The position numbers and the translations under genes are program-made. The notes under the pieces are model-generated. The model ran no database searches. It saw only the letters and a list, made by a program, of their open reading frames with translations, and was not told the origin of the DNA. A stretch of 33,183 nucleotides of DNA, taken from the IMG/VR virus record IMGVR_UViG_3300038701_001184, positions 1-33,183 of that record, one strand, 5' to 3'. This document shows, in pieces, positions 14,621 through 21,350 of the stretch (positions are counted from its first letter, which is position 1; each line of letters starts with the position of its first letter). The stretch comes from a virus.

Positions 14621-14958
14621 AGCTCAATCCTTTCTGTTCTCCATTCCATGATTAATTGCATGGCCTTGTTATAATCACCCGATACGGCATATAATCCACG
14701 CGCTAGACGTGATGCGCGTTTAATACCTAGATATGGCCTCCAAAAATCAACTTCAGGCATATCATGTTGTTCTAAATGCGCCAAAACACTTAATGGCACG
14801 CAATACTGGTCACTGGGCTTTAACCCAGCGCCACAGATATTGCCTTTGCGTATATGAGCGCATTGGACATCATCTGTGCCATATATCAGGCAAGGCAAGC
14901 TGGTAATAAACCGCCTGTGCTTTTCGCTCCTGATATAATTGTTTTTAGGTATTAGCAT
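14617..14958 (-). CDS. HNH-like (DUF968-type) protein with altered metal-site residues
   Basis: A 113-residue protein resembling phage HNH-type putative nucleases next to ninB: PCLIYG at 22-27, QCAHIRKG at 32-39, GLKPSDQYCVPL at 45-56, HLEQHD at 61-66, then DFW. In the usual family the first motif is CxxCG and the later one PLCxxHH. Here the second Cys of the first motif is Tyr (Y26), the Cys after PL is Ser (S57) and the first His of the HH pair is Ala. The zinc site may be lost, so activity is doubtful. The start codon lies in the 12-base repeat shared with 17317-17328 and overlaps the end of the IbrA-like gene by 14 bases. Confidence 0.65.
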   Translation of the reverse strand: MLIPKNNYIRSEKHRRFITSLPCLIYGTDDVQCAHIRKGNICGAGLKPSDQYCVPLSVLAHLEQHDMPEVDFWRPYLGIKRASRLARGLYAVSGDYNKAMQLIMEWRTERIEL

Positions 14959-16147
14959 TTCTCATTTCTTTGATTTGCTTAAATTTCCCCCAAGCTTCAG
15001 ACTTTGGTTGTGTTTGTCCTAAGCCCTTACAATAATAATCGTTCCTTAGTATGCAACGACACATGCGCCTCCAGCTCGGAACCCAGCATTTGTTTTCCAA
15101 TTCAATTGGGGCTTCTTGTGGTATTTTGTCATACCCCCTATCTTTCCAGCAATGTATAAATTTTTCAAACCTAGCCTTGTAATTTTCTCTTGTTTTTGTT
15201 GGTAAAGTTGACAAAAGTAAATTGCAAAAGCTTTCCCATGTGTGTCCATCGGGTTTAGTGATCCTAACGTTCCCATTTATATTTCCGTGCTCCTTAGTGT
15301 ACAAAGCGCCAGAATTAACCCCATTCACCCTAGCAATTAACTTATACCATGTGTCTGGCTCTAAAATATGGTACAACCACAACCCTTTTTTTTGATCATC
15401 CCCGTATGGCTGACAAAGACGTTGCTCACTGATCTTAACCCCAGCCATAGTCATCTTATCGTATATTTCGTTGTGACACTTATCCTTAAAAACAGTATGG
15501 TACGTCCAAATGTCTTCTGTCCTCCAGTCATATATTGGGTAAATGTTAAACAATTGACCGCTAACCTTAGTTGTCCACTTCCTATTTTTGTGCATTAAAC
15601 CGTCTTTCCTAGAGGTTATTGCCCTATAACGATGCAGGCTTTCGTCCGATCTAATTCCAATGAAGGCGGCGCAAGGTTCGCCTTGGGCGTACCATTCTCC
15701 AAAAATCACCATTAGTTCCTCAAACTCCATTTTAGGGTAATAAAAATCATATTGAGAAAGGTCGCTTGCAAGTTTTGGCTTTAGCCTGACCCAATCGTTC
15801 TTTTTTTCTTCATCCCAACAAACCCATTTAGGCTCATAATTACTAACGGCGTTACGTAATAGTAACTCACCACAAAACCAATGCAAATCAATGTTGCTTT
15901 TATACTTATTGACAATTTCCTCTATATGCCTAATTGTGTCAGAATATTGAGCCTCAAGGTCAATTATTAGTAACCCAACCCTTCTATTCCTTTTAATCGC
16001 CTCCTCCATAACAAGGTGCGTCATAACAGTGCTATCCTTGCCACCAGAAAAACTGATGTAAATTTTCTCAAAATCATTAAATGTTTTTGATATGCGTTCC
16101 TGCGCTGCGTCTAGTACATTTTTTTCTAAATAAACTTTTTTGGTCAT
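14945..16147 (-). CDS. IbrA-like PAPS-reductase-family ATP pyrophosphatase (DUF3440 type)
   Basis: A 400-residue protein starting at ATG 16147, with AAGGGGA 5 bases upstream; the frame is open 12 codons further. The PP-loop YISFSGGKDSTVMTHL (SGGKDS at 34-39) binds ATP, as in PAPS reductases and DndC. GIRSDESLHRYRAI at 164-177 and YPIYDWRTEDIW at 203-214 are typical of the IbrA/DUF3440 branch. Several cysteines cluster near the C-terminus (SWRRMCRC, NDYYC). The partner gene, ParB-like IbrB, ends 10 bases upstream. In Escherichia coli, IbrAB activates eib genes by an unknown mechanism; a sulfur-transfer or adenylation reaction is possible, not shown. Confidence 0.8.
   Translation of the reverse strand: MTKKVYLEKNVLDAAQERISKTFNDFEKIYISFSGGKDSTVMTHLVMEEAIKRNRRVGLLIIDLEAQYSDTIRHIEEIVNKYKSNIDLHWFCGELLLRNAVSNYEPKWVCWDEEKKNDWVRLKPKLASDLSQYDFYYPKMEFEELMVIFGEWYAQGEPCAAFIGIRSDESLHRYRAITSRKDGLMHKNRKWTTKVSGQLFNIYPIYDWRTEDIWTYHTVFKDKCHNEIYDKMTMAGVKISEQRLCQPYGDDQKKGLWLYHILEPDTWYKLIARVNGVNSGALYTKEHGNINGNVRITKPDGHTWESFCNLLLSTLPTKTRENYKARFEKFIHCWKDRGYDKIPQEAPIELENKCWVPSWRRMCRCILRNDYYCKGLGQTQPKSEAWGKFKQIKEMRNANT
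14948..14959. repeat. Direct repeat copy 1 (12 bases) at the left edge of the IbrB-IbrA cassette
   Basis: GGTATTAGCATT occurs here and at 17317-17328 in the same orientation. In both places it contains an ATG (minus strand) followed by codons for MLIP. Here it supplies the last codons of the IbrA-like gene and the start of the HNH-like gene. Confidence 0.7.
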
Positions 16148-16157
16148 AGCGTTCCCC

Positions 16158-17285
16158 TTAATATATTTCAACTTGCCTCCCAACAGATAAAGCTTCCTCC
16201 ATGGTAAGCTTTTCTCTATTGTTTTTTAACAGCCATATGTTTAGGTATTCCAGAGCTGTTTCATTGGCTTTCTTTTGACTTTCATCACTCATTAATTGCC
16301 ATCCAGAGCAAAATACAGAAGGGATACCTAACTCGTAAGCCACAGCAGCTTGCCCTAACCATGCTATTCTGTTCATAGCCTTGTTGGTCAGGTAATGCTC
16401 ACAGGAATATTTCCACTCATTAATTACATTACTTAGAGCGCTAGAGAATTTTTCTTGATCAGATAAAAATTCAGCAAAAGCATATTGACACTGCTCTTTT
16501 GTCATTCCTTCTTTTTTTGTGCCGTAAAAGTTGTGATTGACGCACTCCCACTTGTCAAAAGTGTGAAAAATCCTATCTGGGTCATTAGTGTTGGCTGTCC
16601 TCCCCTTATTTTCCTCGCTGTCTAAGTCATCAGTCAAAGGCTGGAAAGTGTCCTCAATTATTGCGTCCTTTGCTTCCCATGCCTTAGAAAAATCCCTGTC
16701 CTCAAATAAGTTTTCTAGACCAGTTATTTGACAAAGCCTTAGCACTTCATCCTCATCCATGCCCAACTCCTTAGCTATTCTTGAGTTTTTCCAGTTTCTG
16801 TTTTTTAACTCCTTTACCATGTCAGACATCGCGGTTACGTTGTGCTTCCCCCTAGCCCTATTATGCCTAACAGTTGAGGCCATTCTGTCGTTTCGCGAAG
16901 AGCATGTGTCGTTAATCCCGACGATAGGAAGATACCCATGAACTCTATCATGAACATCCTTAAATTCTTTGCAAACTCTTGTTCTATGAAACCCGTCAAC
17001 CACTTCTGTTTTTTCTTTGTTTTCCCATGCTACAACTGGCTGTGTGTAACCATCATTGTTAATAGAGTGGCGCAATAATTCCATTTCTGGCGGGGCGACA
17101 CTATTCGGGTTGTAGTCATTTGCGACCACATTATCAACTTTAACCCACTTAACAAAATCAACAGGCTCATTTTTAAATGGAGATATCTCATGCACTTTCT
17201 GTCGAATTAAATTAATGCTCTCTATTTTTGCGTCTAAATCTTGGCTTTCTATTTCTTTCAAAAGCTCTTCCAAAACTCTATTCAT
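16158..17285 (-). CDS. IbrB-like ParB-domain protein with extra C-terminal domain
   Basis: A 375-residue protein starting at ATG 17285 after an AAGGGA site; an upstream in-frame ATG at 17327 has no ribosome binding site. The ParB/sulfiredoxin-like core includes EVVDGFHRTRV (VDGFHR at 96-101) and TVRHNRARGKHN (RHNRARG at 140-146), typical of IbrB. A helix-turn-helix follows (SRIAKELGMDEDEVLRL, 168-184). The C-terminal ~150 residues are an added domain with SCEHYLTNKAMNRIAWLGQA and ETALEYLNIWLL, absent from the short (~200-residue) IbrB proteins. ParB-fold proteins of this type use nucleotides and bind DNA; what this one does with its IbrA partner is unknown. Confidence 0.78.
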   Translation of the reverse strand: MNRVLEELLKEIESQDLDAKIESINLIRQKVHEISPFKNEPVDFVKWVKVDNVVANDYNPNSVAPPEMELLRHSINNDGYTQPVVAWENKEKTEVVDGFHRTRVCKEFKDVHDRVHGYLPIVGINDTCSSRNDRMASTVRHNRARGKHNVTAMSDMVKELKNRNWKNSRIAKELGMDEDEVLRLCQITGLENLFEDRDFSKAWEAKDAIIEDTFQPLTDDLDSEENKGRTANTNDPDRIFHTFDKWECVNHNFYGTKKEGMTKEQCQYAFAEFLSDQEKFSSALSNVINEWKYSCEHYLTNKAMNRIAWLGQAAVAYELGIPSVFCSGWQLMSDESQKKANETALEYLNIWLLKNNREKLTMEEALSVGRQVEIY

Positions 17286-17316
17286 TACAAAATCCCTTTC
17301 ATTCTTTTGTGTATTT

Positions 17317-17328
17317 GGTATTAGCATT
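17317..17328. repeat. Direct repeat copy 2 (12 bases) at the right edge of the IbrB-IbrA cassette
   Basis: Identical to 14948-14959. It lies in the gap between the Gp157 stop (17341) and the IbrB start (17285). The ATG in it (17325-17327) could once have been the start of the HNH-like gene before the pair was inserted. Confidence 0.7.
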
Positions 17329-18831: not shown

Positions 18832-19068
18832 ATGTCTTACATACAAGCAGAAAGAGATTTTCGATTGATTTGTAAAACTTTGGGCTTTGACCGCGTAGAA
18901 ATATGCAGTGATAGCAGAAAGGCGCATTTAGTCGAAAAAAGAAAGATCATAGCGGAAAAATTAGACGCTTTGAACTATAACCCTAGCATGATAAGCCACG
19001 TCATGGACAAGGATAGAACGACAATTTTATATTATTTAGGCAAATTGAAAGGAAAGAAAAATGATTAA
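18832..19068 (+). CDS. Small DNA-binding protein resembling DnaA domain IV
   Basis: A 78-residue basic protein, first gene of the rightward replication operon. The segment SRKAHLVEKRKIIAEKLDAL, then YNPSMISHVMDKDRTTILYY, follows the helix pattern of the DnaA C-terminal domain: an arginine/lysine helix, then a helix-turn-helix of the type I-S-x-x-h-G-x-D-x-T-T-V-x-Y. Such small proteins in phages may recognise the origin. No ATPase part is present. The call is a fold inference from pattern only. Confidence 0.6.
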   Translation: MSYIQAERDFRLICKTLGFDRVEICSDSRKAHLVEKRKIIAEKLDALNYNPSMISHVMDKDRTTILYYLGKLKGKKND

Positions 19069-19755: not shown

Positions 19756-19901
19756 TGGACTTAAAACGCGAAATAACAGCTTTAAAACACATGATGAATA
19801 TCATGGAGGAATTAGAGCCTAACAAAACACTCACGGCACGTAAACTCATGCGCCGTGAGATAATGAGAATTGAGCTTGCAAAGGCTGATAAAGTAAAATA
19901 A
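19755..19901 (+). CDS. Small helical protein behind SSB (48 aa)
   Basis: ATG 19755 forms a TAATG overlap with the SSB stop and the frame ends at TAA 19899-19901. The product is strongly helical and basic (MDLKREITALKHMMNIMEEL, ARKLMRREIMRIELAKADKV). No family is recognised. Coupling to SSB and sensible composition support a real gene. It is the last gene before the attenuator-like hairpin. Confidence 0.55.
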   Translation: MDLKREITALKHMMNIMEELEPNKTLTARKLMRREIMRIELAKADKVK

Positions 19902-19916
19902 CATAGCCTTACGTCA

Positions 19917-19990
19917 GTTGCGGGGCGGAAACCTTTTAAACGATATCTCTTAGACCGCAACCTAGGAGGTATCATTTAAGAGGTTTTTTT
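19917..19990 (+). promoter_or_regulatory. Attenuator-like RNA: 22-base-pair terminator hairpin plus competing helix
   Basis: Positions 19932-19953 pair with 19962-19983 (21 of 22 positions, three as G-U, one C-A mismatch), and three more A-U pairs can form with the seven T residues at 19984-19990. That is a strong intrinsic terminator. The 8-base loop (19954-19961) contains CCGCAAC, a perfect 7-base complement to GTTGCGG at 19917-19923, so a competing helix 917-923/955-961 would block the terminator. The right arm also holds the AAGAGG (19978-19983) that serves the ATG at 19991, so translation of the next gene is also masked in the hairpin. Confidence 0.75.
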
Positions 19991-20446
19991 ATGTTTAAAC
20001 CATTACATGAGTTTACAGACATTGCCGAGCAATCAATAAAAACAACTGAAAGTCATATTGAAACACAAATGTTTCATTCCTTAATGCGCTCTAAGAAATT
20101 TATTTTAATGAGTGAAGGCGACAAAACAGAGGGGTGTGGCCTTTTTATATTTCCACAAGCAGAGATTAAACCGTATAGGCTAGATTTCCTTATTAAGGGT
20201 GTTGGGTTTAGAAAAGCGCAAAGAGTATGGCCGCCAAATTCAACCGCTTATTTGTGCCTTGAGTGCGATGGTAAGGAATATCATAGCTCTAAAGAAGATA
20301 AAGAAAAAGATCTAGTGCGCGATGAATTTTTAAAGAAAAAAGGCATAAAAACATTGAGATACACTGGTACTGAAATATACAAATATTCAGATAAAGTAGC
20401 CTACGATATCGCAAATTTTCTGGAAAGCATGGTTTATGATGGCTAA
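19991..20446 (+). CDS. Restriction-fold (DUF559/Vsr-like) endonuclease
   Basis: A 151-residue protein. The C-terminal ~90 residues resemble small PD-(D/E)xK nucleases of the DUF559/Vsr type: KPYRLDFLIKG (D in a strand), LCLECDGKEYHSSKEDKEKD (ExD-G-x-x-Y-H), RDEFLKKKGIKTLRYTGTEI and a final helix IANFL. The N-terminal helix may help bind DNA. Start ATG 19991 follows AAGAGG at 7-base spacing, both inside the hairpin described above. The gene overlaps the next one by 11 bases. Its substrate is unknown; it could be host DNA or a replication intermediate. Confidence 0.7.
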   Translation: MFKPLHEFTDIAEQSIKTTESHIETQMFHSLMRSKKFILMSEGDKTEGCGLFIFPQAEIKPYRLDFLIKGVGFRKAQRVWPPNSTAYLCLECDGKEYHSSKEDKEKDLVRDEFLKKKGIKTLRYTGTEIYKYSDKVAYDIANFLESMVYDG

Positions 20447-21350
20447 AGAAAACGCTACATGGTTTAAACTATATAGGGGGTGGCAAGATAACCCTATGTT
20501 TAGAAGCGATAAAGATAAGCTTAATTGGCTTTGGCTTATCGAGCATGCCGTTATAAATGAAGTTACAATTTCTATCAATAATAAGCCTGTAAGGATACAT
20601 AGAGGGCAGTTATGTTACTCTTTATCATACCTTTCAAAGGCTTGGGGTTGCAGTTTGTCATATGTAAGGACTTACTTAAAACACCTAAAATTGTGGCAAG
20701 CCATCGACACACAGAATGACAAGGGTCAGACACTCATAACCATTTGTAATTATTGTCGTTTTCAGGATGCGCACACACAAAATGACAAGGGTGCTGTAGA
20801 AAAAGTAACAAGACGATCGCATAGGAGTGACAACAATACTAAGAATGATAAAGAATTAAAGAATAAAGAATATATTATAGGGGATGCTACGCCCCCTAAA
20901 ACCCCAAATAAAAAAGATGATAAATTTGAGGAGTTTTGGAAAGAGTGTCCTAGAAAAATAGGCAAGGGCAAGGCAAGGGAAAAATATCTTATGGCTGTAA
21001 AAAATGAACCGCATGAGTTTTTAGTTGAGATGATGAAAATTCACGCTAAGGATATGAAGGGTAAAGAGGAACAGTTTATCCCACATCCTGCCACTTGGTT
21101 GCATCAAGAGCGTTATCACGATGAAACAAAGGCAAGCATTATTGTTCAGGAAAAAAAGGAATGGCCTAAATGGAAAACAAAAATTGCGGCACTTCTGGGA
21201 GACCATGTTGTTAATGGGTGGTTTAATACAGCAGAGTTAAGGGGTGATGTACTCTCATTTAGCAAGCGTTTTGAGTTTAACCATGTAAAGGAACGCCACA
21301 CAGTAGATTTGTCAAAAATAGGCATAAATGAAATTATTTATAAACCTTAA
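20436..21350 (+). CDS. Phage replication protein (winged-helix front, DnaA domain I-like C-terminus)
   Basis: A 304-residue protein; ATG 20436 or 20439 may be used. Residues ~5-115 look like the winged-helix front common in phage replication initiators or helicase loaders (WFKLYRGWQDNPMF, LSYLSKAWGCSLSYVRTYLK). A charged, repetitive linker follows (QNDKGQT..., QNDKGAV..., KNDKELKNKEY). Around 165-225 are FEEFWKECPRKIGKGKA and HPATWLHQERYHDE, typical of this replication-protein type. The last ~65 residues (WPKWKTKIAALLG, GWFNTAELRGDVLSFS) resemble the DnaA N-terminal protein-interaction domain, often found where a helicase or loader is recruited. Confidence 0.65.
   Translation: MMAKENATWFKLYRGWQDNPMFRSDKDKLNWLWLIEHAVINEVTISINNKPVRIHRGQLCYSLSYLSKAWGCSLSYVRTYLKHLKLWQAIDTQNDKGQTLITICNYCRFQDAHTQNDKGAVEKVTRRSHRSDNNTKNDKELKNKEYIIGDATPPKTPNKKDDKFEEFWKECPRKIGKGKAREKYLMAVKNEPHEFLVEMMKIHAKDMKGKEEQFIPHPATWLHQERYHDETKASIIVQEKKEWPKWKTKIAALLGDHVVNGWFNTAELRGDVLSFSKRFEFNHVKERHTVDLSKIGINEIIYKP

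Follow-up and report, generated by a model that had tools for sequence, protein, structure and literature searches.

Plasmids, and also P4, offer well-known examples of leader RNAs that gate replication initiators. In the repABC plasmids of the Alphaproteobacteria, for instance, the leader between repB and repC switches between an open Shine-Dalgarno (SD) sequence and an intrinsic terminator ahead of the initiator gene, and an antisense ctRNA decides between a large stem-loop and the terminator (PMC3155836). In the IncI-alpha plasmid ColIb-P9 the ribosome-binding site (RBS) of the initiator gene repZ is controlled by the pairing of a loop with a distant segment, i.e. by a pseudoknot, and by an antisense RNA (PMC8383071). 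The P4 CI RNA and the Gifsy-1 IsrK RNA are short phage leader RNAs that combine internal complementarity with termination, where CI RNA acts on the replication operon and IsrK comes in short and long isoforms (PMC4825925). A further kind of phage leader, namely the hairpin that sequesters the RBS of a homing endonuclease gene, has been described for I-TevI and segB of T4 and for mobE of Aeh1 (PMC2988022, PMC3014915).

The element described here (19,917 to 19,990) lies in the IMG/VR virus record IMGVR_UViG_3300038701_001184, of which positions 1 to 33,183 were analysed (this whole stretch of 33,183 nt is called the window). A first-pass annotation had described it as an attenuator-like RNA that controls a nuclease gene. 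We consider it, with a probability of roughly 0.6, to be a conserved leader RNA, about 80 nt long and acting in cis, that stands at the head of a phage replication-initiator operon and works as a two-state switch by means of kissing loops; very probably we are dealing with a new RNA switch that turns on phage DNA replication. The element is a variant of the RNA leaders that gate replication genes and lies outside all Rfam families: a search of Rfam 15 yielded no family at gathering or relaxed thresholds, the sub-threshold matches being generic long hairpins, in line with the earlier statement that no known riboswitch class could be recognised.

With the repABC leader the element has in common a host class that is likely the same and a position ahead of a replication initiator gene. 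It differs in that two neighbouring hairpins carry complementary loops, and in that the window has neither a visible antisense gene nor the repA-repB-repC gene order, nor any Rfam match. The likeness to repZ resides in the pairing of a loop with a distant segment at the RBS of a replication initiator, but here the masking hairpin itself provides the loop, no leader peptide was found inside the RNA, the structure ends in a U tract and the carrier is a phage, not a plasmid. As in the T4-type hairpins, the SD sequence in the window lies in the 3' arm of a stable stem directly before a phage nuclease gene. Unlike them, the element has a two-hairpin kissing layout with a U tract, is followed mostly by non-nuclease genes, and shows no late promoter that would give short transcripts devoid of the 5' arm, the conserved promoter-like box lying upstream of the first hairpin (H1) and none of the scan matches being a promoter-like site within the second (H2). 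P4 CI and IsrK resemble it in being short phage leader RNAs with internal complementarity, and differ from it in sequence and layout. In the literature we found no description of a kissing-loop leader before the initiator operon of such phages.

Anatomy of the leader in the window

The coordinates given by the first-pass annotation (a hairpin of 19932-19953 with 19962-19983, seven T, ATG at 19991 and a loop complement at 19917-19923) proved to be correct, as did its placement of the RBS inside the hairpin. Of the 22 paired columns 18 are Watson-Crick pairs and three are U.G wobbles; the remaining one is a C.A mismatch (C19941/A19974). H2 in fact continues as far as 19927/19988 and thereby counts 26 pairs, 14 in the lower and 12 in the upper half, with the mismatch in between (Table 1). 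The SD sequence AAGAGG is located in the stem, 7 nt 5' of the ATG; its unpaired probability in the window fold is 0.00, and the start region at ATG 19991 has the highest opening energy among 60 window genes. No other 80-nt segment on either strand of the window is as stable as the element (fold z = -6.8; none of 200 shuffles equally good), and the full hairpin is the computed minimum, some 20 kcal/mol below the simple 7-bp alternative. With G.U pairs allowed on the + strand, the inverted repeat reaches a score of 21.5, and the best of 100 dinucleotide shuffles one of 17; as Watson-Crick DNA only, the repeat scores an unremarkable 13 against a shuffle maximum of 14. The base of H2 is A-U-rich with few G-C pairs, and a simple terminator scan does not report the hairpin with its U7 tract; stems of 26 bp exceed typical intrinsic terminators in length. 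The AGGAGG in the upper half of H2 is a near-perfect SD word with no start codon at a normal distance; it may be a standby site for ribosomes, or else a by-product of the stem sequence. A related contig (L470, see below) has AAGGGG at this position.

Table 1. Coordinates of the leader, its candidate promoter boxes and the two genes that follow it (window positions)
Feature	Position	Strand	Remarks
Candidate -35 box TTGCAA	19876..19881	+	4/6 matches, weak alone; spacer of 17 to the -10 box
Candidate -10 box TAACAT	19899..19904	+	Ends 12 nt 5' of the 7-mer
H1 hairpin CGUC / (A)GUUGCGG / GGCG	19912..19927	+	Loop displays the 7-mer 19917-19923
GUUGCGG, 5' half of the putative kissing pairing	19917..19923	+	All 7 positions pair with the H2 loop in each of the four members
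Lower H2, 5' strand, and mismatch C19941	19928..19941	+	14-nt linker if the loops kiss
Upper H2, 5' strand	19942..19953	+	12 bp with 19962-19973
H2 loop A-CCGCAAC, 3' half of the putative kissing pairing	19954..19961	+	
Upper H2, 3' strand	19962..19973	+	Contains AGGAGG 19964-19969
Mismatch A19974 and lower H2, 3' strand	19974..19988	+	Pairs with 19927-19940; holds SD AAGAGG 19978-19983
U7 tract, terminator-like	19984..19990	+	Directly 5' of AUG; U6-7-AUG in 4/4 members
Nuclease gene (PF18741 REase_MTES_1575 / DUF559)	19991..20446	+	First gene 3' of the element
DnaD/O-like replication initiator	20436..21350	+	phrog_270, phrog_2514

The loop of H2 reads CCGCAAC (19955-19961), which exactly complements the GTTGCGG displayed by H1. 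In the window alone this 7-mer match has a p of about 0.003-0.006, which is weak for a pattern noticed afterwards; the complement recurs in three other contigs. H1 itself is at its weakest in the window, where it holds one U.G pair and one bulged A and has a rival in another small fold of this region. Pairing of the loops excludes the lower half of H2 only; the upper 12 bp can persist alongside it. The earlier proposal of two mutually exclusive folds has held up in so far as an attenuator-like, two-state RNA that uses 19917-19923 and the loop is concerned, but its picture of a terminator against an anti-terminator is better replaced by full H2 against H1 kissing upper H2.

A TATAAT-like hexamer occurs in every one of the four members of the family introduced below, always at offset -18, with 18 of the 24 letters matching TATAAT; this score is attained by 0.2% of shuffles and by 1.2% of circular shifts. 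The evidence for a promoter is modest. Transcription likely starts at about 19911, at the foot of H1. The -10 box of the window overlaps the 3' end of an ORF of 48 codons, and the ORF would therefore not be on the short transcript. This ORF was rejected as a leader peptide, being not conserved (neither it nor the nuclease has close relatives in the fetched loci) and located upstream of the likely start, which also makes the earlier suggestion of a ribosome stalled on it unlikely. Opposite the leader no consistent site for an antisense promoter was found, and none of the scan matches was a promoter-like site inside H2.

Relatives of the element and their covariation

A covariance model made from a single sequence (19904-19995) matched the contig L013 with 41.8 bits, at a site that has another stem and the same UUGCGG upstream, CCGCAA loop and U6 followed by AUG. 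A pattern scan based on this match yielded 95 stretches, among which a hairpin test singled out two more members, L461 and L470; members have stem scores of 22-24.5, against 12 for the other pattern matches. The family thus consists of the window, L461, L470 and L397 (a wider fetch of the L013 contig), all of them viral contigs. When the window was held out, the covariance model from the three other contigs retrieved it with 80.1 bits (E 2.9e-18), the best non-member reaching 32 bits. Absence of conserved base pairing in relatives had been named at the outset as grounds for giving up the annotation; the pairing is conserved in all three of these contigs with changed letters, which implies that the RNA is conserved and not a one-off.

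In each of the four members H2 has about 26 bp, a loop of 7-8 nt and one mismatch at 11-13 bp from the loop, and the lower half of the helix contains the SD sequence, followed by U6-7 and AUG. The 11 pairs nearest to the loop are standard pairs in 44 of 44 cells and change on both sides at 10 of the 11 positions; the window and L470 have much stem sequence in common, such that there are about three independent stems among the four members. Read on the + strand, the four helices hold 20 G·U or U·G wobbles and three C·A, the latter all at the conserved mismatch, and these counts argue for selection that acts on the + strand RNA and not on the DNA.

H1 is present in all members with stem letters that differ from one to the next: CUGUU-AUUGCGG-AACAG in L461, CCUAC-AUUGCGG-GUAGG in L397, GCGC-GU-CUUGCGG-A-GCGC in L470 and CGUC-A-GUUGCGG-GGCG in the window. 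The first kissing pair covaries (G-C, A-U, A-U and C-G in the four members), and pairs 2-7, i.e. six of the seven, are invariant. If the partner is slid along, kissing pairing falls from 100% to 21-46%. In a formal control on the kissing helix alone, 47 of 500 shuffles reach it, which is not significant with four sequences. The pattern that retrieved L461 and L470 required TTGCGG and CCGCAA; for these two members, therefore, independent evidence comes only from the one kissing pair outside those six, from both hairpins and from the gene context.

Beyond these members, exact-word and palindromic pattern scans yielded no relatives, the broader pattern having succeeded after the L013 match. No true member was found among about 790 sampled bacterial genomes (385 alphaproteobacterial and 398 of the phylum): the genome matches of the covariance models were ordinary terminators, and the genome pattern matches, inspected by eye only, were without such a hairpin. 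The hairpin is likewise absent after ssb in related phages. The starts of nine DUF559 genes that were checked show no comparable hairpin, so nuclease and element do not travel together. Homologues of the replication initiator in the phage collection were too distant for use.

A general scan for a long hairpin with a T tract and an upstream loop complement gave few further cases. One of these, at L045:1830-1975 (+), consists of a TATAAT box, a 5' hairpin, GGTTCAGGAA, a 20-bp hairpin with a 40-nt loop that holds a 10-nt complement, TTCCTGAACC, and T7; it lies upstream of a replication initiator-like ORF, with no ATG after the T tract, and may be a looser relative of the element. Another, at L188:4380-4730, on a contig related by its terminase, is non-coding and structured; it has a 24-bp hairpin that looks like a terminator and, upstream, a loop complement of 7-8 nt that is probably due to chance.

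The operon behind the leader

The neighbours in the window are gapR, ssb, the 48-codon ORF, the nuclease and the DnaD-like initiator, and the relatives of its SSB are found mostly in alphaproteobacterial genomes. ATG 19991 is the sole start before the ESxIE motif of the nuclease, for which a protein search returned only distant DUF559 relatives. The initiator gene starts within the end of the nuclease gene (an overlap of 11 nt), and the two are probably translationally coupled. In L461 the element is directly 5' of a replication initiator whose residue 1 aligns to position 1 of the phrog_1408 profile, which indicates that the AUG after the U tract is the true start there. In L470 this AUG opens an ORF of 18 codons, followed by the initiator (phrog_26426, phrog_270), and in L397 it opens a helicase gene, after which come a methyltransferase and, behind that, the initiator. 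A replication initiator is thus encoded downstream of the element in four out of four members, and, going by these gene orders, the replication-initiator operon is the common denominator. The first-pass annotation saw control of the nuclease as the essence; in view of the other three contexts, the nuclease is, as far as gene order tells, simply the first gene of the replication operon of this particular phage. SSB and GapR, which had been put forward as effectors, gained no specific support, neither gene being seen beside the element in the three other members.

Several further genes may be recorded separately. The Geobacillus phage vB_GthS_NIIg9.7 (L342:1288-2720) has a DUF559 endonuclease directly followed by a DnaD-type initiator, a gene pair as in the window. 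On Firmicute plasmids (L389, L390, L391 and L394) solitary DUF559 nuclease genes stand beside genes for small helix-turn-helix regulators, which could form a small defence or toxin-like pair. A PAPS-reductase-like gene (PF01507 and DUF3440) adjoins a ParB-N-like gene in the window (14945-17327, - strand), and a protein of the PAPS-reductase family is encoded just upstream of the element in L470 (11006-11641, - strand). The rightward operon of the window begins, before gapR and ssb, with a gene for a 78-aa protein (18832-19068, + strand) that has a partial DnaA C-terminal DNA-binding domain, below the cut-off of Pfam.

A proposed two-state switch and its alternatives

We propose that transcription would start at the foot of H1, that H1 would display its 7-nt loop and that H2 would be made next. 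Fully zipped, H2 would mask the SD sequence with its lower half and, together with U6-7, could act as an intrinsic terminator, such that the operon would be off by termination, by RBS masking or by both. If the loop of H1 kisses that of H2, geometry would leave room for no more of H2 than the 11-13 bp above the conserved mismatch; the lower half would become a linker and an exposed SD sequence, no terminator would form and the operon would be on. The two states would be exclusive, because in fully paired H2 the whole helix of about 26 bp separates the loops and that of H1 cannot reach the other. The linker measures 12-16 nt in the four members, against a span of 23-25 bp for the stacked rod of H1, kiss and upper H2; at about 2.8 A per bp and 6 A per nt, the opened lower strand is estimated to be just long enough to span the rod. 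Computed energies in the four members are -9.9 to -12.6 kcal/mol for lower H2 and -8.6 to -10.2 kcal/mol for the loop-loop pairing, where pseudoknot energies are rough. While the lower 3' strand has yet to be transcribed, H1 and upper H2 are already able to form, according to the co-transcriptional order as computed for nested folds in the window. Given the similar strengths and this folding order, two states are plausible. The balance between them may be shifted by the kinetics of co-transcriptional folding, a protein, RNase III or a trans-acting RNA.

Much of the anatomy would also be accounted for by a plain RBS-masking hairpin of the T4/Aeh1 homing-endonuclease type, in which H2 silences the first gene in read-through transcripts, a later start or a cut by RNase III frees the RBS and the loop complement is idle. 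The complete burial of the SD sequence and the high opening energy agree with this, and a 26-bp helix would suit RNase III. Such hairpins are, moreover, documented at phage nuclease genes, free-standing ones included (PMC2988022, PMC3014915). We nevertheless regard this explanation as unlikely: it has no place for the covarying loop-loop complement and H1, which are found in all four members, nor for the U6-7 tract, and in three of the four the gene after the element is not a nuclease.

It is similarly doubtful that H1 and H2 serve solely to end most transcripts, with low read-through to the replication genes, a kiss that merely aids or hinders the hairpin and no translational role. For a pure terminator, the invariable location of the SD sequence in the stem and of the AUG right after the U tract would be needless, and the stem is very long with a weak, A-U-rich base, even though U6-7 lies directly 3' of the stem in all members, a promoter-like box of its own is found just upstream and the arrangement recalls the repC leader of repABC in its intrinsic-terminator state (PMC3155836).

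The terminated H1-H2 RNA, or an antisense RNA, might instead use the complementary loops to act in trans and so serve the phage as an RNA for copy-number control or immunity. The promoter-like box and the terminator-like end would delimit an RNA of some 80 nt, pairing between complementary loops of separate molecules is possible, and precedents exist in P4 CI RNA and the isoforms of IsrK (PMC4825925), in ColIb-P9 repZ with its antisense RNA (PMC8383071) and in the ctRNA of repABC (PMC3155836). None of our observations requires a role in trans and there is no consistent antisense promoter, and we hold this to be improbable as well. A DNA-level feature, i.e. an origin hairpin or a recombination or packaging site, is disfavoured and very improbable, for although a strong inverted repeat adjoins the replication genes, the repeat stays within the shuffle range when read as Watson-Crick DNA and the wobbles are those of the + strand.

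The two-state leader, in which the kiss occurs in cis, could in principle be extended to a replication rheostat: the leader would kiss in cis (on), and terminated copies of about 80 nt would, as they accumulate, compete for the loops in trans (off). We consider this extension quite unlikely. If it were true, the copy number of the leader would set the expression of the replication initiator, and superinfection immunity would be possible without any protein. If the switch works as proposed, it would constitute a compact, RNA-only control of the commitment of a phage to DNA replication. It would then be recognisable from sequence by its loop-loop complement, U tract and AUG, and the four members would provide a seed alignment for a new RNA family.
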